DNA of 31,157 nucleotides from a virus: positions 1 to 31,157 of IMG/VR virus record IMGVR_UViG_3300011118_000022. One strand, written 5' to 3'. Position numbers and translations under genes: made by a program. Below the pieces are notes generated by a model that saw only the letters and a list, made by a program, of their open reading frames with translations, was not told where the DNA came from and did no database searches. This document shows positions 6,961 to 30,496 of this stretch, piece after piece (position 1 is the stretch's first letter; each line of letters begins with the position of its first letter).

Positions 6961-7020
6961 ATCGTAGCTGGAGATTATGAAACAAATATTGAAGAATATA
7001 CTATTAAATTTATGTGTTAA
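6952..7020 (+). CDS. 22-aa ORF of unknown function
   Basis: ATG at 6952 follows GGAGATAATAAAC. The peptide MKKIVAGDYETNIEEYTIK ends FMC and stops inside the first of two ATGTG-CACAT dyads. The start region is repeated before the next small ORF at 7087. It may be a leader or a small protein; no family is recognised. Confidence 0.45.
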   Translation: MKKIVAGDYETNIEEYTIKFMC

Positions 7021-7050
7021 ACCACATAAAAAATATGTGTTAAACCACAT
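7012..7050 (+). repeat. Pair of identical 16-base dyads
   Basis: ATGTGTTAAACCACAT occurs at 7012-7027 and again at 7035-7050, seven bases apart. Each copy can form a 5-bp hairpin (ATGTG/CACAT). No T-run follows on the + strand, so these are unlikely to be terminators. A tandem operator for a dimeric regulator, or an RNA element before the next ORF, is more plausible. Confidence 0.7.
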
Positions 7051-7058
7051 TAAAAATT

Positions 7059-7072
7059 TGCAAACGTTTGCA
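7059..7072. promoter_or_regulatory. cre-like palindrome, copy 1
   Basis: TGCAAACGTTTGCA is a perfect 14-base palindrome. It fits the LacI/CcpA operator pattern TGNAARCGNWWWCA with one mismatch and sits directly before the ribosome site of the 16-aa ORF. Related copies lie at 9021, 11700, 14423 and 29844. Confidence 0.5.
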
Positions 7073-7735: not shown

Positions 7736-9016
7736 ATGAGTAAAGAATGGACATCAGAAGAGATAAAAAAATTAATAGGGTTAAAAACAGAAGGAAAAAC
7801 TTATACACAAATAGGAAAAATATTAAATAGATCAAGGAATTCTATTAGGGGAAAATTTCGTACACATAACTCTATTACTGATTCGCCACCCCGGCCAGAA
7901 AAAAAGAATAAACTTACTTACACTAGAACTGATCTTATGGAGGCGATTGCCGAAGGTACTAATGTAAGTAGACCATATACTGAAGAAGAAATGTTTGATT
8001 TATTTAAAATTGACCCAACCATATGGACAGTAACTAAAAAAGTAATTAATACCTGGGCTAACTTCTTTCAAACTAAATTATGGTTGGCTAGAAATAAAGG
8101 TGTTTTTGAATTTAAAACAATACAAGAAGAATTCAATACATGGGCTAAAAATAATGCCCCCCTTCTTTCTTCTGTTGATTACAATATCTCTGAAGACGCA
8201 AAAGATAGAATATTAGAAATTAATATGGCAGACCCTCATTTTGATAAACTTGCTTGGGGGAAAGAAAGTGGTGATAATTATGACATAAAAATTGCTAAAA
8301 TAGTATTTATTGACGCCGTTCAAGAAATTATATATAAAGCACGTAAAATTGGTTTTAGTAAAATTTTACTAATCCTTGGAAATGATTTATTTAATTCTGA
8401 GGGAAAGCGTGGTACTACTACCGAAGGTACTCCACAAGATACTGACGTTCGATGGAAACGGTCATTTAGCTTTGTTGTTGCTACCTTAAAAGAAGTGATT
8501 GATATTTGCCAACAACACACGCCCGTAAGTGTTGTATTCGTTTTAGGAAATCACGACGAAGAAAGAACATACTATGCTGGCGAAGCAGTCAAAGCTTTAT
8601 TTCTTAATTGCGCGGATGTATTTGTAGATAATACCCCCAAATCTAGAAAATACTATCAATGGGGTAAAAATATGCTTCAATTTTTACATGGCTACACTAA
8701 CAAAGGAAAAATAAAATGGGATAAATTACCACAATTAATGGCCCAAGAAGAGAAACAAATGTGGGCAGAGACAGAATTTAGGTACAGTCATATAGGACAT
8801 GAACATCATAATGAGGCTACTATATTTAACACTCTAAAGGACGAAATTGGCATCACAGTACAAATAATGCCTTCCATTGCGGGCACAGATGGGTGGCATT
8901 ATGATAAGGGTTATATAGGACACAATCATCAAGCTAAGGGCTTTATATATGATAAAGAGAAAGGACTTGAGTATGAAATTAATTATTATGCTCCCCGCTA
9001 CTTTTATTTAGACTAA
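7736..9016 (+). CDS. Metallophosphoesterase with N-terminal HTH
   Basis: 426 aa. Residues ~1-45 (WTSEEIKKLIGLKTEGKTY, then a QIGKIL helix and SRNSIRGKF) look like a Myb/GcrA-type helix-turn-helix. From ~160 the calcineurin-like fold appears: D166-P-H168, G-N-D at 215-217, G-N-H-D-E at 271-275, HGY at 318-320 and G-H-E-H-H at 354-358. All two-metal ligands are present, so it should be an active phosphodiesterase or nuclease. The HTH suggests DNA targeting, as in SbcD/Mre11-type nucleases, but no SbcC-like partner is seen. AAAGGAG precedes the ATG. It is the last large gene before the candidate origin. Confidence 0.85.
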   Translation: MSKEWTSEEIKKLIGLKTEGKTYTQIGKILNRSRNSIRGKFRTHNSITDSPPRPEKKNKLTYTRTDLMEAIAEGTNVSRPYTEEEMFDLFKIDPTIWTVTKKVINTWANFFQTKLWLARNKGVFEFKTIQEEFNTWAKNNAPLLSSVDYNISEDAKDRILEINMADPHFDKLAWGKESGDNYDIKIAKIVFIDAVQEIIYKARKIGFSKILLILGNDLFNSEGKRGTTTEGTPQDTDVRWKRSFSFVVATLKEVIDICQQHTPVSVVFVLGNHDEERTYYAGEAVKALFLNCADVFVDNTPKSRKYYQWGKNMLQFLHGYTNKGKIKWDKLPQLMAQEEKQMWAETEFRYSHIGHEHHNEATIFNTLKDEIGITVQIMPSIAGTDGWHYDKGYIGHNHQAKGFIYDKEKGLEYEINYYAPRYFYLD

Positions 9017-9020
9017 AATT

Positions 9021-9034
9021 TGCAAACGCTTACA
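9021..9034. promoter_or_regulatory. cre-like operator, copy 2
   Basis: TGCAAACGCTTACA fully matches the Bacillus cre core TGNAARCGNWWWCA. It lies between the metallophosphoesterase stop and the next ribosome site. The same 14-mer, plus two A on its right side, recurs at 29844. Confidence 0.5.
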
Positions 9035-9049
9035 AAAAAGGAAAACACT

Positions 9050-9118
9050 GTGAAATTTATAAAACAAAAAGTAGAAGTTATCTTAAAATATTTCCCAAAG
9101 GATATTAAGGAGGCGTAA
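9050..9118 (+). CDS. 22-aa ORF, possible leader peptide
   Basis: GTG at 9050 follows AAAAAAGGAAAACACT. The peptide has a basic, amphipathic helix character (VKFIKQKVEVILKYFPKD). Its last codons AAG GAG GCG form the ribosome site of the Cys-rich gene at 9123. Coupling is plausible; no function is recognised. Confidence 0.4.
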   Translation: MKFIKQKVEVILKYFPKDIKEA

Positions 9119-9122
9119 AAAA

Positions 9123-9506
9123 ATGACAAGCAAACAAAAATTAATTAAAATTTGTCAAATTAAAGCAAAACTTATTAAAAAACATATAGATATTGACAAT
9201 TATTTTACACCGGAAGATCAAAAAGAGATTGAAAATTGGTCGGCGAGAGAATGTCTTAGAATTGTTGAAACAATGAAAAAAGCTTTAGACGTTACTGATT
9301 TTAGTGACTGTTCTGATGCTAAAATTTGTCCTTGGTGTATTTTTTATGGCTTGTTTTGTAATATATGTTCTTATGGTGCCAAACATGGGAAATGCGATGA
9401 TATAGACAGCTTATATAATAAAATTGCTCAACAGTCAAACCACTTTGGTAGTGCTATTATCCAAATTTCGACATTAATGACAAAAATTAAAAAAATATTG
9501 GGATAA
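9123..9506 (+). CDS. Cys-rich protein of unknown function
   Basis: 127 aa. The first half is charged and helical (MTSKQKLIKICQIKAKLIK, then IEN and RIVETMKKAL segments). Residues ~60-90 hold a cysteine cluster C-x5-C-x2-C-x6-C-x2-C followed by AKHGKC, which suggests a zinc site. A truncated copy of its 5' end lies at 5077-5184, so this gene has been duplicated in this phage. AAGGAGG gives a strong start. It directly precedes the candidate origin. Confidence 0.65.
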   Translation: MTSKQKLIKICQIKAKLIKKHIDIDNYFTPEDQKEIENWSARECLRIVETMKKALDVTDFSDCSDAKICPWCIFYGLFCNICSYGAKHGKCDDIDSLYNKIAQQSNHFGSAIIQISTLMTKIKKILG

Positions 9507-9540
9507 TTTCGTATAAACATTTACAAATTTTTCTTAAGTT

Positions 9541-9653
9541 GACAAAGAAAATACGGTGATACTTTACAAAGAAAATACGGTGATACTTTACAAAGAAAAT
9601 ACGGTGATACTTTACAAAGAAAATACGGTGGTGCTTGACAAAGAATTTTACCG
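9541..9653 (+). repeat. Iteron array: four 24-base direct repeats plus a partial fifth
   Basis: Units begin at 9542, 9566, 9590 and 9614, each 24 bases long and abutting with no spacers. The common core is AAAGAAAATACGGTGATAC. The fourth unit ends differently (GTGGTGCTTG), and a fifth begins at 9638 and diverges after ACAAAGAA. No gene covers them. Uniform period, position upstream of a DNA-binding gene and the A+T tract after them fit initiator-binding iterons. Confidence 0.85.
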
Positions 9654-9658
9654 TTATA

Positions 9659-9746
9659 CAAATTGTCCCCCGGGACATACTTTGAGGCAGGAAAAGTCAA
9701 GAAAAGTTAAAAACTTGCCCCAAAGTATGTCCTACAAGACAATTTG
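9659..9746. repeat. Large interrupted inverted repeat
   Basis: The outer arms CAAATTGTC (9659-9667) and GACAATTTG (9738-9746) are perfect complements. After a symmetrical 5-base mismatch, the inner arms GGACATACTTTG (9673-9684) and CAAAGTATGTCC (9721-9732) are also perfect and continue imperfectly as AGGCAGG/CTTGCCC around a ~22-base loop. No T-run follows, so it is not a simple terminator. It could extrude as a cruciform or fold in RNA. Confidence 0.85.
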
Positions 9747-9876
9747 ATGGTCTTTAACCTGTTGAAAAATGGGAAAGTTGAAAAATAGAAAAATTGATAC
9801 TTTAATACATATATATATATATAACTAATATAAGTATTAATAGTATATATAAATTATTAAAAGGGAAGCAAAAAAA

Positions 9877-10767
9877 ATGACACTTAAAATGTCTCAAATT
9901 TTTTCAGAAAAAATAACTACTAAACAAGATTTGTTTTTAGTCTTTTTAAATCTTGCTCCGTTTTTAAATATTTCTGGAGTTGAATTTACAATTTATCAAT
10001 ATGTGCTCAGTAAAATTTTTTTAACAAATTCTATTTCTTTAGTAATTAATCTTCGTCTACTGTGGAGTGGTGATCTTGCTAATCGTTTCTTTGGAGTAAA
10101 TTGTAGTAGGCGTAATTTATATAAGGCAATGAGTAGGCTTCAAGACAAAAATGTAATTTACAGGGGTAAAAACCAATCAGAATACGTTTTAAACATGCCT
10201 GGCTTGTCTCAGGTTCTACTTTCTTTCTATGGCTGGATACCTGCTACCCTAGAATTGATTGTAGAGCAATCTAGGGGCCTTAAAATAGATTTTGGCGAAA
10301 TCATCCGCACGGAGGAAAATATTATGAAATTAGAGGAAGCAATTGAAAGAGGCAAGAACAAAAATAAAAACGCTTTAAAAAGAAAGCACAAAAGGCTTGA
10401 TGCCCGGCTCCCAAATAAGTATACTCCGGCTATCGTATTTCAATTTTTACAAATATACAGCAAGGAAAGCGATATTTTATTATTTGATCGCCACACAGCA
10501 ATATTACGTGGACAAATACGAAATTGGATTACAGATTGTAAAAGTAAAGATGTCGACATTAAAGCAAGATTAAAGCAATTGTGTATTTGTTGGCGCGCTT
10601 TGGTAAGTTTACAGGACGAGACGGGAACAAAATTAGCAATTGGGGGTGCTGTAAGCTTTAAAACTTATTATTTATATCAAAAATATATAGACCCGTGGCT
10701 GGATGAACACGGAAAAGAATTTGAAGAAGAATCTAATAAACCTCTAAGAAAAATACATAAACTTTAA
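9877..10767 (+). CDS. Winged-helix protein, candidate replication initiator
   Basis: 296 aa. Residues ~60-110 read as a winged helix: a WSGDLANRFFGV helix, then SRRNLYKAMSRLQDKNVIYR as recognition helix, and SEYVLN as wing strand. Residues ~145-170 are strongly basic (ERGKNKNKNALKRKHKRL), and the C-terminal half is helical with AILRGQIRNWI. No enzyme motif is present. Its place directly after the iteron region and before helicase and primase genes suggests that it binds the origin. This is a context-based inference; a transcriptional regulator is also possible. AAGGGAAGC precedes the ATG. Confidence 0.6.
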   Translation: MTLKMSQIFSEKITTKQDLFLVFLNLAPFLNISGVEFTIYQYVLSKIFLTNSISLVINLRLLWSGDLANRFFGVNCSRRNLYKAMSRLQDKNVIYRGKNQSEYVLNMPGLSQVLLSFYGWIPATLELIVEQSRGLKIDFGEIIRTEENIMKLEEAIERGKNKNKNALKRKHKRLDARLPNKYTPAIVFQFLQIYSKESDILLFDRHTAILRGQIRNWITDCKSKDVDIKARLKQLCICWRALVSLQDETGTKLAIGGAVSFKTYYLYQKYIDPWLDEHGKEFEEESNKPLRKIHKL

Positions 10768-10775
10768 GGATTAAT

Positions 10776-11048
10776 ATGGATCAGAGACATGCAAGATTAA
10801 GAGTATGTGCTTCTTGTGAATGGATTTTTAAAGATCATGATTCTTGTCCTAAATGCGGATTTGCACATTATGGAGCACGTCATGTATATGGTGACAAATG
10901 TTATAAATATAAATACTCACAAGAACCTTGGATGAATAGCAAAATAAGATGCTATACAAGTAAATTAAATAGTATAATATATGAGACTAATCAATTTAAA
11001 GAAAAAGATAAGTTTTGTTTGATTAATATTGCTGGGTGGAAAAATTAA
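10776..11048 (+). CDS. Zinc-ribbon protein
   Basis: 90 aa. The N-terminal third has C11-x2-C14 and, about ten residues later, C-P-K-C-G-F near 24-29, a typical zinc ribbon. Later cysteines in GDKCYKYKY and SKIRCYTS may form a second site. No other domain is visible. AAGGA lies just before the ATG. It sits between the initiator candidate and the possible helicase loader, so a replication-linked role is reasonable but unproven. Confidence 0.65.
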   Translation: MDQRHARLRVCASCEWIFKDHDSCPKCGFAHYGARHVYGDKCYKYKYSQEPWMNSKIRCYTSKLNSIIYETNQFKEKDKFCLINIAGWKN

Positions 11049-11693
11049 ATGAATAAATTAATACATTCTTGGGACGACAACAAAGATTTTGGGTGGGCCA
11101 AAGAAGATTTAAATAGTATTTATTATAATTTAAAAAAATTTGGATACTTACTTCCTCCCCAAAAACCAAGTGATTTAGTTGTTAAAATAATAAATAAAAT
11201 AGTTGGCAAGCTTCTTAACGACGAGTGGCTTATATTATTAAGTAATAATTATAATTTACTTGCACAACTTAGCAATCTTATCCCGATTACATATTCTTTA
11301 AATTCTATGTATTCTTGTATGAATGTAACTACAAATGAGGTATATAAAGCATTGTATGAAAGTTCCTTTGACGATAGCGTATTAAACACTATGAAGTTAT
11401 CAACATTGTTGTATTGGTCCAATGTAGCCCAATCTGGCCCAAATGTAAGTAAATACTCAGGAGTATTTTTTGATCTCATAAGTACAAGAGCAAAACGAAA
11501 ATGTACGACAGTATTTACACATTTGTATAACGGCGAGCGCGCTCCAAGTACGCTTATGCGTACTTTAGGAATAAGTATTTCAACACTATTTGGTGAAGGA
11601 ACTACAGCAATTATCAAAGAAAAAATAACACCAATTGACATCCCTATTGAAGTTAATAATTCTTGGGATAAAATAGGAGAAATTTTAATTTGA
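11049..11693 (+). CDS. Possible degenerate DnaC-like helicase loader
   Basis: 214 aa. The stretch at ~140-190 (FFDLISTRAKRKCTTVFTHL, then RAPSTLMRTLG and ISTLFGEGTTAIIKEK) resembles the sensor-1 to sensor-2 end of DnaC/IstB loaders, which read roughly 'LI..R......T.FTSN...eL...LG.....L.EG'. No Walker A motif is present, and the expected Walker B position (STLLYWSN) lacks the acidic pair. It lies just upstream of the DnaB-type helicase gene, where a loader would be expected. If correct, it is a loader that no longer binds ATP in the usual way. The similarity is weak and judged by eye. Confidence 0.35.
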   Translation: MNKLIHSWDDNKDFGWAKEDLNSIYYNLKKFGYLLPPQKPSDLVVKIINKIVGKLLNDEWLILLSNNYNLLAQLSNLIPITYSLNSMYSCMNVTTNEVYKALYESSFDDSVLNTMKLSTLLYWSNVAQSGPNVSKYSGVFFDLISTRAKRKCTTVFTHLYNGERAPSTLMRTLGISISTLFGEGTTAIIKEKITPIDIPIEVNNSWDKIGEILI

Positions 11694-11699
11694 AAAATT

Positions 11700-11713
11700 T
11701 GTAAACGTTTGCA
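11700..11713. promoter_or_regulatory. cre-like operator, copy 3
   Basis: TGTAAACGTTTGCA lies between the loader-like gene and the ribosome site of the 41-aa ORF, the same placement as the copies at 7059 and 9021. It differs by one base from the palindrome at 7059. Confidence 0.5.
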
Positions 11714-11726
11714 CGAAGGGTGAATA

Positions 11727-11852: not shown

Positions 11853-11992
11853 AATTAATGAAAGAAGAATGGAAAAGATATAATAAATTTAAGCCATCTA
11901 GTTTTCAGAAAGTATTTTGGTTCTTTTTTCCAACAATGACTTCAATGAAGTGGAAGAAATATAAAAATGTAAATGAAGAGGAGTGTTGGTAA
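11843..11992 (+). CDS. 49-aa protein of unknown function
   Basis: ATG at 11843 lies after a strong GAGGAGG (11825-11831). The product is rich in aromatic and basic residues (SFQKVFWFFFPTMTSMKWKK) and ends EEECW. A short hydrophobic stretch FWFFFP may touch the membrane. Its last codons GAA GAG GAG serve as ribosome site for the helicase. No family is recognised. Confidence 0.5.
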   Translation: MDIELMKEEWKRYNKFKPSSFQKVFWFFFPTMTSMKWKKYKNVNEEECW

Positions 11993-11993
11993 C

Positions 11994-13256
11994 TTGAGTG
12001 CTGGATTGGGGTTATTTCAAAAAATAATAAAAGATAAATATAAGATAAGTACTTTACAAGATCATGGTATATCTGAAAGAGTATTTAACCAAGAAGAGAA
12101 GAAGGTATATAATTTTTTGGTTAAATATCACAGAGAATACGGAGACGTTCCTCCGCTTGCTACAGTAGTGCTCGAAACCGGAGTATCTTTTCCTACTGTC
12201 CCTAATAATTCTGTTGATTATTGGATTGATTGTGTGAAGAAGGGTTATATAAGAAGACAAATTGTAAATTGCGCAAATAGAATAGTAAAAACAAAGGCCA
12301 CTTCAGATTTTAATAATAATTGTGAAAATTGGATAAGAACATTACATACAGATATTAGTTCATTTAATCTGATAGAAAAAGTATATACAATTGCGGATAT
12401 AGCACCCCAAGTTGTAGAAGCGCATGATAGGCGACAAAAATCACCTGAAATGTTTGGCATCCCATTTGGTATTCCTTATTTAGATACAATTTCTGATGGG
12501 GCACAACCAGGAGACACAATTGCAATATGTGCCAGACCGGAATTAGGAAAAACTATGTTAATGCTCACGATGGCGTTAAGTGCTTTTAGAAAAGCTAAGA
12601 CAATTTTATATGTTACGCTTGAAATGTCGGCTTTTCAAAATGTAAGAAGAATAATTGCTGTTGATGCAAGTGTACCGGCAATGAGAATGAGATTAGGAAA
12701 ATTGGGACATTGGGGCCGAAAAGAAATGTTAAGTAGTGTGAAGAGATTTAAGGCCAATAAAAATAATTTTTATTTATTGCAAGGATCGCTTCATACAACC
12801 GTTGAGGATTTAATTTCTAGAGTACAGGATATACAACCAGATGTTTTGTATGTAGACGGAGCATACCTTTTACGTTCTAATTTAAAAATAACTTCAAAAG
12901 TTGAAAGAATAGCGTATACAGCAGAAACGCTTAAGGCCATTGCCACAACTTTTTTAATTCCAGTCATAGAAACATATCAATTTGATCGAAAAGTTGGTAA
13001 AAAGTCTACTGGAGGTCTTGGAAATATAGGATGGTCTGACGTAGTTGGGCAGTTAGGATCAATTGTACTTGGTATAGCTGATAGCGATTTTCTTGAGGAG
13101 CGTAAAACATTTGCTGCAAGACAATATAAAATACTTGAAATATTAAAGGGACGTGAGGGTGAGAAAGGAAAAATAAAAATGCTTTTTGATATGCAAAGAA
13201 TGAAATTTGAACAAGCAGAGGTATTGTCGGGGAATGAATTATTAATAAATAATTAA
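11994..13256 (+). CDS. DnaB-family replicative DNA helicase
   Basis: Hexameric helicase that unwinds the fork for the phage polymerase. I choose TTG at 11994 because GAGGAG (11978-11983) sits ten bases upstream; the in-frame ATG at 11973 has no ribosome site and would only add seven residues. The RecA-like domain has the Walker A variant ARPELGKT (first Gly replaced by Ala; ~180-187 in the 420-aa form), the TLEMS segment typical of DnaB, and Walker B L-Y-V-D at ~285. FGIPFGIPYLDTISDG before Walker A matches the DnaB pattern 'TGIPTGFxxLDxxxxG'. The N-terminal ~130 residues fit the primase-interacting helical domain. It shares an operon with the primase gene 0.7 kb downstream. Confidence 0.88.
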   Translation: MSAGLGLFQKIIKDKYKISTLQDHGISERVFNQEEKKVYNFLVKYHREYGDVPPLATVVLETGVSFPTVPNNSVDYWIDCVKKGYIRRQIVNCANRIVKTKATSDFNNNCENWIRTLHTDISSFNLIEKVYTIADIAPQVVEAHDRRQKSPEMFGIPFGIPYLDTISDGAQPGDTIAICARPELGKTMLMLTMALSAFRKAKTILYVTLEMSAFQNVRRIIAVDASVPAMRMRLGKLGHWGRKEMLSSVKRFKANKNNFYLLQGSLHTTVEDLISRVQDIQPDVLYVDGAYLLRSNLKITSKVERIAYTAETLKAIATTFLIPVIETYQFDRKVGKKSTGGLGNIGWSDVVGQLGSIVLGIADSDFLEERKTFAARQYKILEILKGREGEKGKIKMLFDMQRMKFEQAEVLSGNELLINN

Positions 13257-13270
13257 AAAGGGGGTAAATA

Positions 13271-13519
13271 ATGGAGGGGAAAATAAATAATAATGGAGAG
13301 TTATATATAAAAAGAGGTTTAGGATATAGGCAGCAAGAATGCAAACATAAAGCAGATTTAGACTATACTGCGTGTGGTGATAGTTGTCCATTATTCGGTG
13401 AGCCGACTTTTACTCTTGTACAAGAGCGCATGTGGCCATCATTACCGGCGCATTATGCTAAATTAGAATTGTGCGGAGGTAAAATATTATACTTTACAAA
13501 TTTTAAGGACGAAAGGTAA
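13271..13519 (+). CDS. Cys-rich small protein, paralogue A
   Basis: 82 aa. Four or five cysteines are arranged as QEC, ...C-x3-C-P-L-F-G-E-P..., and LELCGGKIL, ending F-x-D-E-R. The protein at 13749 shows the same order (KRG, QEC, C-x2-C-x-LFGEP, LKLC, FTDER), so the two are paralogues. The conserved cysteines suggest a metal site. GGGGGT gives the ribosome site. Function unknown. Confidence 0.65.
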   Translation: MEGKINNNGELYIKRGLGYRQQECKHKADLDYTACGDSCPLFGEPTFTLVQERMWPSLPAHYAKLELCGGKILYFTNFKDER

Positions 13520-13525
13520 TAATTT

Positions 13526-13735
13526 ATGAAAATAAAAGTATGCAGAAGTGATAAACAGGAATGCCCTTATCTCACAATAAACAATTATGGAATACCACAA
13601 TGTATTTTTAATTATGCTGTTAATTATATTTTATCTGATTTTTTAAATAATTGGAAAGCTTTTTCTGAAAATTGTGATTTAATTAAATTAGGCTGGTCTC
13701 CACCAAAAAATAATGAATTAATAAAAATAAGATAA
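13526..13735 (+). CDS. Small Cys-containing protein
   Basis: 69 aa starting MKIKVCRSDKQECPYLTI with cysteines at ~6, 13 and 26 and one later (ENCDLIKLGW). It lies between the two paralogues at 13271 and 13749 and shares the short E-C-P and Cys-rich style, but cannot be aligned with them along its length. AAAGG precedes the ATG. Function unknown; a metal-binding fold is possible. Confidence 0.6.
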   Translation: MKIKVCRSDKQECPYLTINNYGIPQCIFNYAVNYILSDFLNNWKAFSENCDLIKLGWSPPKNNELIKIR

Positions 13736-13748
13736 TGGGGGGTTTAAA

Positions 13749-13991
13749 ATGGATGGAAAAATAACAAAAGAAGGAAAATTAGCAATAAAAAGAGGTTCTA
13801 AATATAAAAAACAAGAGTGTATTAAATATCCGCAGTATTCTTGTTGTGATGAATGTCAATTATTTGGGGAGCCTTACGATATTGTTTCTTATAGTGTTTA
13901 TAACCCCCCATATAAATCGCCTTCTGTGGGGTTAAAATTATGCGATAAACAAAGACTTGAATTTATTGAATTTACTGATGAGAGAGAATAA
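13749..13991 (+). CDS. Cys-rich small protein, paralogue B
   Basis: 80 aa, clearly related to the protein at 13271: MDGKITKEGKLAIKRG against MEGKINNNGELYIKRG, then a shared QEC, LFGEP, LKLC/LELC and F-T-D-E-R/F-K-D-E-R end. The cysteines are at equivalent places. A tandem duplication with one gene inserted between the copies explains the layout. A GGGGGG ribosome site precedes the ATG. The stop abuts the primase ATG. Confidence 0.65.
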   Translation: MDGKITKEGKLAIKRGSKYKKQECIKYPQYSCCDECQLFGEPYDIVSYSVYNPPYKSPSVGLKLCDKQRLEFIEFTDERE

Positions 13992-15020
13992 ATGACTGAA
14001 GAAGGAATATATTTATTTTTAAACGCCCTTGATGTTGATACGAGTAAAATAAGAAAATCGAAAGCTACTAGAGGTGAGTGGTTGAGTCTTGTTTGTCCGC
14101 TTGCTTTTCACACCCATCATGATGGTATAGATACACGTCCAAGCTTTTTTGTCTCAATAAACGAAGAGGGACATTCTTTTTACAACTGTTTTGGGTGTTC
14201 TGAAAAAGCAAAAAGACTTATTAGCTTGCTTCACAATATATGGTTAATGTCCGGCGAATATCCACATAAAGCAGCAAAGATATATACTCAATATGAATTA
14301 CACGACTCTGATATAAATGCTGAATTGACTGAATATTGTGATATTTGGGATACATTTGAGCAAAGAAAAATAGACCCGCTTCCACAAAAAGTACTTTCTA
14401 AATACCAGCTTTTATATGATAATGTAAACGTTTGCACAAAATATCTTAAAAAAAGAGGAGTATCTTCTGACATTTGGGAAAAGTGTAAAGTAAGGCGTGA
14501 TGGCGTAAATAATACGCTTATATTTCCATTTACTAACATTTTGGGGGAGATTTATGTTTTACGGGTACGGACGATAATCAATAAAAAAATATGGACTGTA
14601 TCAACTTCGGTTAAGGAATTTTCTGATATTATTTTTCCAACAATACGAGAAGTTGGTGTATTTTTTGGAATGGAGTTAGTTGACTTTTCTAAACCTGTAG
14701 TGATTGTAGAGGCTCCCATTGATGCAATGAGACTCATGTCTCTTGGTTTGTACAATGTGGTTGCTTCTGGTACGTCTATGATAACTAGTGAGCAGGTAAG
14801 AGCTGTATGTGCCGATTCTATAGTTCTTGGGTTTGATATGGATTTGGCGGGGCAGAAAGCAAGAAAAAGAGTTTTAAAATATATTGGAGAGGATATTGTA
14901 GTATCTGACCTAGATTGGGGTATTGTAGATAAGAAAAATGCAGAGCCTTGCAAGGATGGGGCAGACCTTATTTGTAAAGAAGATTTAATAAAAGTATTAA
15001 AGAATAAAATAACATATTGA
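13992..15020 (+). CDS. DnaG-type primase (zinc finger + TOPRIM)
   Basis: 342 aa; makes RNA primers at the fork. Residues 35-69 carry the zinc-binding region C35, H40 (or H42/H43), C66 and C69, with RPSFFV between, as in CHC2/gp4-type primases. The TOPRIM core is V-I-V-E240-A-P-I-D and F-D-M-D-L-A-G at 281-287, with the Glu and both Asp intact. It is shorter than DnaG (~600 aa) and has no helicase domain, matching a two-protein system with the DnaB-like gene upstream. The TGA stop lies at the -35 box of the next promoter. A cre-like 14-mer sits inside the gene at 14423. Confidence 0.88.
   Translation: MTEEGIYLFLNALDVDTSKIRKSKATRGEWLSLVCPLAFHTHHDGIDTRPSFFVSINEEGHSFYNCFGCSEKAKRLISLLHNIWLMSGEYPHKAAKIYTQYELHDSDINAELTEYCDIWDTFEQRKIDPLPQKVLSKYQLLYDNVNVCTKYLKKRGVSSDIWEKCKVRRDGVNNTLIFPFTNILGEIYVLRVRTIINKKIWTVSTSVKEFSDIIFPTIREVGVFFGMELVDFSKPVVIVEAPIDAMRLMSLGLYNVVASGTSMITSEQVRAVCADSIVLGFDMDLAGQKARKRVLKYIGEDIVVSDLDWGIVDKKNAEPCKDGADLICKEDLIKVLKNKITY
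14423..14436. promoter_or_regulatory. cre-like 14-mer inside the primase gene, copy 4
   Basis: TGTAAACGTTTGCA is identical to the copy at 11700 but lies in coding sequence (codons for N-V-N-V-C-T). cre sites inside genes can act as roadblocks, but this one may be chance. Low confidence as a working site. Confidence 0.3.
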
Positions 15021-20301: not shown

Positions 20302-21164
20302 TGGCATTTACAGATTCATTACTAAAAAATAAAAAAGTAATAGAAGATAGTAGTGATCCGTTTGTATTAGCATCTTCTAGTGTTGCGAACATTACAAAAA
20401 TAGAAGAACGTGAAATAAAGCAACCAAGGGCATCTTCTATTTATGATAGTTGTATGCGTATGCATGTATTGTGTACTATTTTGAAGCGGAAACAAAAAGT
20501 ATACTATAGTATAAAAGATATAATAACATTTGGCATAGGCAACGCTGTTCATTATTGGGCACAGAATTTTCCAGATTTGTTTGGAGATGAAAGGTATGGA
20601 TTTTGGAAATGTGGCTCTTGTGAATTTATTAAAGATTTTGGACCCCTACCAAAAATAAAGTGTCCTAAATGTTCAGCAAATGCAACAGCTTGGGTATATC
20701 ACGAATATGGTGGTATTGTTACAAATCCTTATAACTTTTCGTTCCACATAGATATGTTTAAAAAGGTGGGGGATGTTTATAGAATAGGAGAAATTAAAAC
20801 AATCTCTAGAGATAAGTTTTATACTTTAGCGGCTCCGCTAATAGCACACGAATATCAAGTGCTAACATATATAATGGGATGTTTTTATCTTAAAACTCTA
20901 CCGATAAAGTTAGACCTATGGAATAGTTATGTATATTATATATCCAAAGAGCATACTCAAGAAACAATACCTATTAAGGCATTTTTAGTCAAAACAAATA
21001 AAGAAGTTGTAAAGAATATTAAGGATAAATTACGACAATATAAAGCAGGGATTACTAACTATCCTAGTAATATCCCACCTAAAAGTACTGATTGTGAATC
21101 TAAGGGATATAAGTGTTGGAGAGCAAAAAAGTGTCCAGTGATGGGGGAGTGTGAAAAATTATGA
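20301..21164 (+). CDS. Cas4/RecB-family PD-(D/E)XK nuclease with Fe-S cysteines
   Basis: 287 aa. Nuclease motifs: G-N-A-V-H84, H-I-D151, G-E164-I-K166 and E-Y-Q186, as in the RecB/Cas4 family. Cys51 near the N-terminus together with C265, C272, C278 and C284 resembles the Cas4/AddB 4Fe-4S cluster. An extra zinc ribbon (C104, C107, C121, C124) is inserted before the catalytic Asp. The likely activity is ssDNA exonuclease or end processing for recombination. No cas1 or CRISPR is near, so this is a phage recombination nuclease, not a CRISPR adaptation gene. The stop overlaps the next gene by ATGA. Confidence 0.82.
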   Translation: MAFTDSLLKNKKVIEDSSDPFVLASSSVANITKIEEREIKQPRASSIYDSCMRMHVLCTILKRKQKVYYSIKDIITFGIGNAVHYWAQNFPDLFGDERYGFWKCGSCEFIKDFGPLPKIKCPKCSANATAWVYHEYGGIVTNPYNFSFHIDMFKKVGDVYRIGEIKTISRDKFYTLAAPLIAHEYQVLTYIMGCFYLKTLPIKLDLWNSYVYYISKEHTQETIPIKAFLVKTNKEVVKNIKDKLRQYKAGITNYPSNIPPKSTDCESKGYKCWRAKKCPVMGECEKL

Positions 21165-21364
21165 GAATGAAATGTCGTGAATGTGATCAAATACATAATA
21201 GTAAAGACATTAGAAATAATAATATATTAACTTATGCGGTTGGTTATCCAGAATGGCATGAATGTATAGACGGTAGAAGGAAAGGAAAAGAATTTGCAAA
21301 AAGTGAATTAGATAATGATGTTACTTTAATTTATGGATATGATGGATGTTTAGGATGGCCATAA
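21161..21364 (+). CDS. Small Cys/His-containing protein
   Basis: 67 aa. M-K-C-R-E-C-D at residues 3-9, followed by a histidine in DQIH and by W-H-E-C-I-D, could make one zinc site. No family is recognised. It is coupled to the Cas4-like gene by ATGA (21161-21164), and the preceding GGGGGAG is a good ribosome site. It may be an accessory to that nuclease; this is a guess from position. Confidence 0.6.
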   Translation: MRMKCRECDQIHNSKDIRNNNILTYAVGYPEWHECIDGRRKGKEFAKSELDNDVTLIYGYDGCLGWP

Positions 21365-21600
21365 CTAATTGGGATAAGCTTTTAAAGACTGTAGATGAGA
21401 CAAAATATAAACAACTAGAAGAAGATACAATAAGAGCAATAAAAGAAGAAATAGTACCAATGGCTATGAAAACTAAAATTACTGGGGATGAACTATTTGC
21501 TGTATTATTAATGGTTAGTAGTGGTTATATCCGTTTTTTATTTGAGCATGATGAAAAATGGTGTAAAAAGATTAAACAAATAATTAGGGAAAAATTATGA
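21346..21600 (+). CDS. Small helical protein of unknown function
   Basis: 84 aa from ATG at 21346; an ATG at 21355 (MAITNWDKLL) is equally possible because neither has a clear ribosome site. The protein is mostly helical and charged (KYKQLEEDTIRAIKEEI), with a more hydrophobic C-terminal helix LFAVLLMVSSGYIRFLF. It overlaps the previous gene by 19 bases and ends in TGA overlapping the next ATG. No function can be given. Confidence 0.6.
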   Translation: MFRMAITNWDKLLKTVDETKYKQLEEDTIRAIKEEIVPMAMKTKITGDELFAVLLMVSSGYIRFLFEHDEKWCKKIKQIIREKL

Positions 21601-21760
21601 AAAGGAAATTGAAATTTCATACGAATTTATAACAAGCGAAAAAGCAAAAAATTTAGAAGGATATCTTGCAGATGAAGTAATAAAAATTACTCAATATGAT
21701 CTCGACTTGGCGCGGATGTTGGGGGAGTTTGGGGAAGTATGCTTAAAGGAATTAAAATGA
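21597..21760 (+). pseudogene. Small gene needing a -1 shift after codon 2
   Basis: ATG at 21597 follows AGGGA and overlaps the previous stop (ATGA), but its own frame stops after 11 codons. Reading -1 after ATG AAA gives MKKEIEISYEFITSEKAKNL and on to EFGEVCLKELK, 54 residues. That frame ends in TGA overlapping the resolvase ATG at 21757 and contains its ribosome site AAAGGA, so both ends fit a normal gene. One A (or G) is missing near 21600-21605. The cause is mutation, slippage on the A-run or a sequencing error. The gene at 26484 has the same defect. Confidence 0.6.
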
Positions 21761-29842: not shown

Positions 29843-30496
29843 ATGCAAACGCTTACAAATTTACCAAAATTTATATCAATACATATCCCCAAAGCTGGGG
29901 GTGTGACGTTTTTTCATATTCTTAAAAAAATATATGGAAAGCGAATATTGCACGATAATGCAATGTCCCCTCTAAATCCCCTTTGTCCGGGTAGGTTATA
30001 TGCAAAAAATTGGGGTAAGTATCATGTAATTCATGGTCATTTTGACTATTCTAAATATGAGCATCTACCATTAATAACATGGGTACGTAATCCAATTGAT
30101 CGAGTTATTTCTCATTATTGTTATTGGAAGTTTAGGCGTGTTACTGCCGCACAGAGAACTAATAATTTTTATCATGAACTTATGATTGCTAGAAAATTAG
30201 ATATATATCAATTTGCTGAATTGCTCCCCAATGTAATTACAACATTTGTGGGAGAGGATATAAGCAAATATACTTTTATTGGGATTGTTGAAGAGTTTGA
30301 GCATTCTCTGAAGCGTTTTAAAGAATGGTCGGGGTTAGAAATAACTGGATACGAAAGAAAAAATGTAAATGTTAAAATACCAGAAAATTTTATAGAAAAT
30401 ATTGACAGAGAAAGAATAGCACAGTTTGTTAAAAAAGATATGTATATATATGATATGGCATATGATAAATATATTAGAAAAGTATTGTTTAATTAA
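29843..30496 (+). CDS. Sulfotransferase family protein
   Basis: 217 aa. Residues 13-22 are I-H-I-P-K-A-G-G-V-T, the 5'-phosphosulfate-binding loop of PAPS-dependent sulfotransferases (HIPKTGGTS). Residues 81-91, V-R-N-P-I-D-R-V-I-S-H, match the 3'-phosphate-binding motif (RxPxxRxxS). HGHF at 64-67 lies where family 2 sulfotransferases have a conserved HGH. It should transfer sulfate from PAPS to a carbohydrate or similar acceptor, possibly on the virion or host envelope. No PAPS-synthesis genes are nearby, so host PAPS would be needed. The cre-like 14-mer at 29844 overlaps its first codons. Confidence 0.82.
   Translation: MQTLTNLPKFISIHIPKAGGVTFFHILKKIYGKRILHDNAMSPLNPLCPGRLYAKNWGKYHVIHGHFDYSKYEHLPLITWVRNPIDRVISHYCYWKFRRVTAAQRTNNFYHELMIARKLDIYQFAELLPNVITTFVGEDISKYTFIGIVEEFEHSLKRFKEWSGLEITGYERKNVNVKIPENFIENIDRERIAQFVKKDMYIYDMAYDKYIRKVLFN
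29844..29857. promoter_or_regulatory. cre-like operator, copy 5, at the sulfotransferase start
   Basis: TGCAAACGCTTACA is identical to the copy at 9021-9034 and fully matches the cre core. It covers codons 1-5 of the sulfotransferase gene. Coding constraint could explain it, but exact identity with a non-coding copy is notable. Confidence 0.4.

Follow-up and report, generated by a model that had tools for sequence, protein, structure and literature searches.

Iteron plasmid origins, for example oriR of P1 with its RepA protein, carry their iterons upstream of a gene for a winged-helix initiator. In the O-type origins of lambda and the lambdoid phages (orilambda and the origins of Shiga toxin (Stx) phages), tandem iterons of about 20 bp are combined with an A+T-rich tract, and those of lambda are located inside the initiator gene. 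Among the cultured phages with a replication module similar to the one considered here, DLP5 is temperate and exists in its lysogenic state as a replicating phagemid (PMC5834331), and lysogens are also known for DLP3 (PMC7326821). The locus examined in this study lies in a 31,157-bp fragment of an uncultured phage from IMG/VR (IMGVR_UViG_3300011118_000022; hereafter the window), in which a tandem repeat array is located in the gap at positions 9507–9876, immediately upstream of the gene at 9877–10767.

We consider it very probable that this gap is an iteron-type replication origin of a group of siphophages of the ~100-kb class and that the gene at 9877–10767 encodes its initiator. An earlier note on this DNA had proposed an iteron-type origin, and the proposal is now supported by the position of the array among relatives, the homology of the initiator family to O-like proteins, and the cumulative GC-skew minimum of a related genome, in addition to the anatomy of the gap itself. 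In the mechanism that we propose, the winged-helix domain of the initiator would bind the tandem 24-bp iterons, and the assembled complex would melt the adjacent A+T tract at 9801–9860. The helical C-terminal domain of the initiator, together with a 214-amino-acid protein encoded downstream, would then load the DnaB helicase of the phage, and the phage primase would start synthesis.

Anatomy of the gap

The 370 bp at 9507–9876 contain no convincing gene and separate the open reading frames (ORFs) at 9123–9506 and 9877–10767; small ORFs over the repeats have the appearance of read-through of a 24-nt (8-codon) unit. The array, on the plus strand at 9539–9645, consists of four full 24-bp direct repeats, with copies of TTTACAAAGAAAATACGGTGATAC starting at 9539, 9563, 9587, and 9611, and a partial fifth at 9635–9645, all of which are presumed initiator-binding sites. 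Its score was 73.8, compared to 14.4 for the best shuffle, and none of 500 dinucleotide shuffles of the gap equalled it. The tract at 9801–9860, presumed to be a DNA-unwinding element, is 93.3% A+T and is the top A+T 60-mer among all 31,157 bases of the window. The gene-free region of 370 bases, the four abutting repeats, the 88-base two-part inverted repeat, and the almost pure A+T tract described in the earlier note are all confirmed, with the partial fifth repeat added and the beginning of the array moved two bases upstream.

The inverted repeat stands between the array and the A+T tract and forms a two-part hairpin of exactly 88 nt on the plus strand (9659–9746), with 31-nt arms and a 26-nt loop. 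Its outer stem, CAAATTGTC/GACAATTTG, is divided by a 5 × 5 internal loop from the inner stem, GGACATACTTTG/CAAAGTATGTCC plus GGCA/TGCC. Folded as RNA with short flanks, it reaches −41.1 kcal/mol (z = −7.2; 0 of 200 shuffles equally stable). Since the hairpin is strong in the window and in loci L087 and L098 and is weak or absent in other relatives, it is no defining feature of the group. It is possibly a leader attenuator or a cruciform, and our own guess is that expression of the initiator may be under its control.

An alternative reading is that the repeats and the hairpin form a control region only. In this case, the repeats would be operators for the 9877 protein or another regulator, the hairpin would attenuate transcription of the replication operon, and the origin would be at another site. 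The presumed 5′ leader of the operon does contain both the array and a highly stable hairpin, L098 has at the place of the hairpin a 20-bp stem and, directly after it, a run of T, as in an intrinsic terminator, and many iteron initiators repress their own genes. However, an operator role would be less natural for the outgroup arrays, which sit hundreds of bases inside the initiator gene, and the A+T-rich tract after the array and the skew minimum at the corresponding gap of a relative also speak against this explanation, which we regard as improbable. The origin and control roles of the array are not mutually exclusive.

Two abutting 16-bp direct repeats of GTTGAAAAATRGRAAA lie on the plus strand between the hairpin and the A+T tract (9761–9792). 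An exact-match search found no DnaA box (TTATNCACA) at 9001–10000, a sigma-70 scan of the gap region stayed at chance level, and searches of Rfam and for tRNAs returned no RNA family and no tRNA. The exact 17-base core of the repeat has six single matches in IMG/VR, all in contigs that do not encode window-like proteins, and these matches are taken as chance.

The predicted initiator and its relatives

The gene at 9877–10767 (plus strand) encodes a protein of 296 amino acids with an N-terminal winged helix (about residues 34–105), a long helix, and a helical C-terminal domain (184–286). The AlphaFold2 (AF2) model, built on an alignment of 13 sequences, has a mean predicted local distance difference test (pLDDT) score of 80.6 and shows the winged-helix pattern, with helices at 34–50, 59–64, and 78–90 followed by a beta wing at 94–105. 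The model bears out the description in the earlier note of a winged-helix protein ahead of a helicase and a primase, as do the genes for a DnaB-type replicative helicase at 11973–13256 and for a DnaG-type primase with a Zn ribbon and a Toprim domain at 13992–15020 (both on the plus strand).

Searches with this protein alone returned nothing from PHROGs, Pfam, IMG/VR, or 50,697 phage records, and it has no Pfam match up to E 0.1 to a plasmid Rep family. Relatives were reached exclusively through DnaB alignment and profile search of IMG/VR; one scan of genome contigs gave two distant matches only. In the clade of the window, the orthologous gene is the second upstream of DnaB, and its product matches the 9877 protein with E-values of 5.5e-20 (L016), 6.7e-16 (L015), and 3e-5 or better (L084, L085, L087, L089, L090/L091, L093, L094, and L097), while the initiators of L098/L101 and L099 are linked to the family via L016. 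The order of initiator, ~200-amino-acid protein, DnaB, and primase is common to about 60 phage loci. The module is syntenic with those of Vibrio phage LV6, Rhizobium phages L338C and TM16, Stenotrophomonas phage DLP3, and Aeromonas phage HJ05. At the position of the initiator, these phages encode proteins with hits to PHROGs annotated as 'replication initiation O-like' or as 'DnaD-like helicase loader', the hit of LV6 being weak.

The link to O-like initiators is provided by profile comparison. A profile of 13 clade initiators aligned by hhalign with one of 18 outgroup initiators with a probability of 96.9% (P 1.7e-10) over both the winged helix and the C-terminal domain, whereas two unrelated control profiles gave probabilities below 1%. 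Matches to PHROG 428 ('replication initiation protein') were obtained for 15 of the 18 outgroup initiators, and matches to PHROG 678 ('replication initiation O-like') for 11. As judged from these profiles, the winged-helix protein encoded at 9877 is a divergent initiator homologous to the lambda-O-like initiators of phages. A first, low-confidence model of the protein had V9QJ92 as its top match in BFVD (probability 0.99, E 0.011), an entry of the same length as the L338C initiator (472 amino acids), with which it may be identical.

Array position and GC skew

The survey of arrays covered 65 loci. In each, the whole initiator gene and the 500 bp upstream of it were scanned and compared to 100 dinucleotide shuffles; an array was counted as significant with units of 18–28 bp and P at most 0.02. 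Significant arrays were found in 54 of the 65 loci, with units mostly of 21–24 bp, and their positions differ sharply between the clade of the window and the remaining loci. In the clade, 10 of 12 loci have a significant array, in all 10 cases in the gap upstream of the initiator, so that tandem repeats do recur in most of the relatives that keep the gene, a check proposed in the earlier note. Outside the clade, 44 of 53 loci have one, which in 43 cases is internal to the initiator gene, mostly 280–610 nt into it; no array is present inside 9877–10767. Fisher's test of this contrast gives P 5e-10, a value that overstates the independence of the loci. Because the clade is monophyletic in the DnaB tree (support 1.0), the contrast between upstream and in-gene arrays reflects one historical change. 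In 9 of the 11 clade members examined, the array and the gene are separated by a tract whose A+T content ranks in the top 0.5% for its locus.

The sequences of the arrays are completely different among relatives, as might be expected if the initiator and its sites co-evolve. The same finding could be claimed for a chance or mobile tandem duplication (satellite-like, or like a miniature inverted-repeat transposable element) without function, but such a duplication would hardly give significant arrays in so many loci, with units of such similar length at corresponding positions, and we regard it as the least probable of the explanations considered. The recurrence of arrays at corresponding positions instead points to selection that maintains the arrangement while the sequences co-diverge.

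A pointer from base composition comes from the clade relative G010, a genome of 124,229 bp with a 47-bp terminal repeat. Its cumulative GC-skew minimum, at 103,139, falls between the array (102,907–102,949) and the start of the initiator gene (103,318), and its maximum, at 38,923, is about half a genome away. In seven contigs, the detrended minimum lies nearer to the initiator than expected from uniform chance (combined P 2e-4). A skew minimum at this gap, which the earlier note had proposed to look for, is seen in G010. In the window itself, third-position (GC3) skew is 0.17 on the left and 0.37 on the right, a weak to moderate change (gene-shuffle P = 0.004) with its best split at 11973 and not at the array.

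Several observations weigh against the origin reading. The gap of G010 is also a point of gene divergence, so that its skew could reflect gene orientation or transcription. Among genomes with all genes on one strand, the detrended minimum lies 1.4–1.8 kb downstream of the initiator start (four genomes) or 4.5 and 14 kb away (two genomes). The skew pattern does not hold for G008, nor for LV6 and DLP3 in the outgroup, whose whole-genome skew does not point to their in-gene arrays. Clade members L089 and L091 have no significant array. Neither the 9877 protein nor its 12 relatives have a significant direct E-value to a known initiator family, so that the link to known initiators requires profile–profile comparison, and Foldseek searches of PDB with models of the protein returned weak winged-helix matches only, those of the 13-sequence model being to winged-helix regulators. 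Finally, initiator binding, melting, helicase loading, and the direction of replication are all predictions from sequence comparison.

Neighbouring genes, palindromes, and known origins

The protein of 214 amino acids encoded at 11049–11693 (plus strand) has no family match and occupies the position of the protein of ~180–250 amino acids that precedes DnaB in relatives; from this position alone, it is presumed to be the helicase loader. A small cysteine-rich, zinc-ribbon-like ORF at 10776–11048, between the initiator and the presumed loader, is not seen there in relatives. A phage contig, L003, is 99.9% identical to the window but lacks ~500 bp in the segment downstream of DnaB (L003 1–328 corresponds to window 13153–13976), with a single gene in place of three (13271–13519, 13526–13735, and 13749–13991). 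The outer two of these three genes are alike, and their similarity suggests that repeats have recombined here. The window also differs from L003 at 21164–21755. The gene at 203–2794 encodes a family A DNA polymerase with what seems, by eye, to be an N-terminal uracil-DNA-glycosylase-like domain.

A 14-bp palindrome is dispersed over the window and its relatives. The window has five exact copies of TGYAANCGNTTRCA (at 7059, 9021, 11700, 14423, and 29844; reversed control, 0), and a degenerate copy, TATAAACATTTACA for TGYAARCGNTTRCA, lies just 5′ of the array at 9512–9525, within a segment (9508–9533) that matches the palindrome site at 11692–11717 at 88%. At the place just before the array, the palindrome is intact in L015 and L016. 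Copies number 8 in G002, 11 in G003, 8 in G004, 16 in G008, and 14 in G009; G007 has about 20 of a similar motif, DLP3 (L144, L145) has 25 of TGCAATNNATTGCA, 17 of them wholly within genes, and LV6 (L146, L147) has 10 of another. The palindromes lie in and between genes, and their sequence is genome-specific. In a post hoc test, the copies in G008 and G003 become more widely spaced with distance from the predicted origin, whereas those in G009 do not. They resemble the more than 30 unexplained dyad repeats of Cluster O mycobacteriophages (PMC4351075). We tentatively suggest, as a possibility that is itself rather unlikely, that a clade of O-like phages moved its origin from the initiator gene to the upstream gap, which freed the initiator from encoding its own sites, and coupled the origin to these genome-wide palindromes, one of which lies beside the array and which in some genomes are denser towards the origin; a phage protein bound to them would organise, segregate, or silence the replicating genome. 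Two copies of ATGTGTTAAACCACAT at 7003–7060, spaced by 23 bp and each a dyad, lie directly 5′ of one dispersed palindrome. Another copy overlaps the start codon of the gene at 29843–30496, whose product is sulfotransferase-like (HIPKAGG motif, by eye) and unusual for a phage.

The array could also be a partition site of a phage-plasmid, with centromere-like iterons, and not an origin. Direct repeats can serve as partition sites, and DLP5, a cultured relative maintained as a phagemid, encodes ParB-domain proteins (PMC5834331). However, the genes flanking the array encode a nuclease-type protein, an ORFan, the initiator, and DnaB, with no ParA or ParB-family gene beside it in this fragment, and throughout the group the array lies before or in the gene for the replication-initiator homolog; a partition site is therefore very improbable. 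The earlier description of the phage as virulent-looking is not established, because the window is a fragment and a cultured relative is a phagemid in lysogeny.

If the gap is an origin, a single repeat region expands into an origin/initiator system that is predicted for about 60 phages and comes with a testable rule for the location of the origin. An array in this position suggests that O-like phage origins need not lie in the interior of the initiator gene, and arrays inside and outside the gene offer a natural comparison for the joint evolution of initiator and sites. Origins and initiators could be mapped in the same way in other phages, where family searches do not recognise the initiator.

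Compared to iteron plasmid origins such as P1 oriR, the locus has its iterons likewise upstream of a winged-helix initiator gene, but it differs from the RepA/Rep_3 systems in lacking a plasmid Rep match and an exact DnaA box in the region searched. The modules of DLP3/DLP5 (Delepquintavirus), LV6, L338C, TM16, and HJ05 share the order of initiator, ~190-amino-acid protein, and DnaB, followed by primase, UvsW-like helicase, and RecA, although their DnaB proteins are only 23–30% identical to that of the window. DLP3, LV6, and HJ05 likewise have arrays, of 21–23-bp repeats, but inside the initiator gene; the in-gene array of L338C is not significant, and that of TM16 has P = 0.05. With lambda and the lambdoid phages, the window shares tandem iterons, an A+T-rich tract, and a winged-helix initiator related to O-like proteins, and its 214-amino-acid protein may correspond to the helicase loader encoded next to the initiator in those phages. 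Its phage, in contrast, carries its own DnaB and primase, and its array, like those of its clade, lies upstream of the gene. The undescribed origin/initiator pair suggested in the earlier note is thus unusual in the position of its array, while its type, a divergent O-like initiator with iterons, is known. Because the array is not inside the gene, we file the predicted origin as a variant of the O-like initiator/iteron kind and not as lambda-type; the kind of origin is known, and its arrangement is new.
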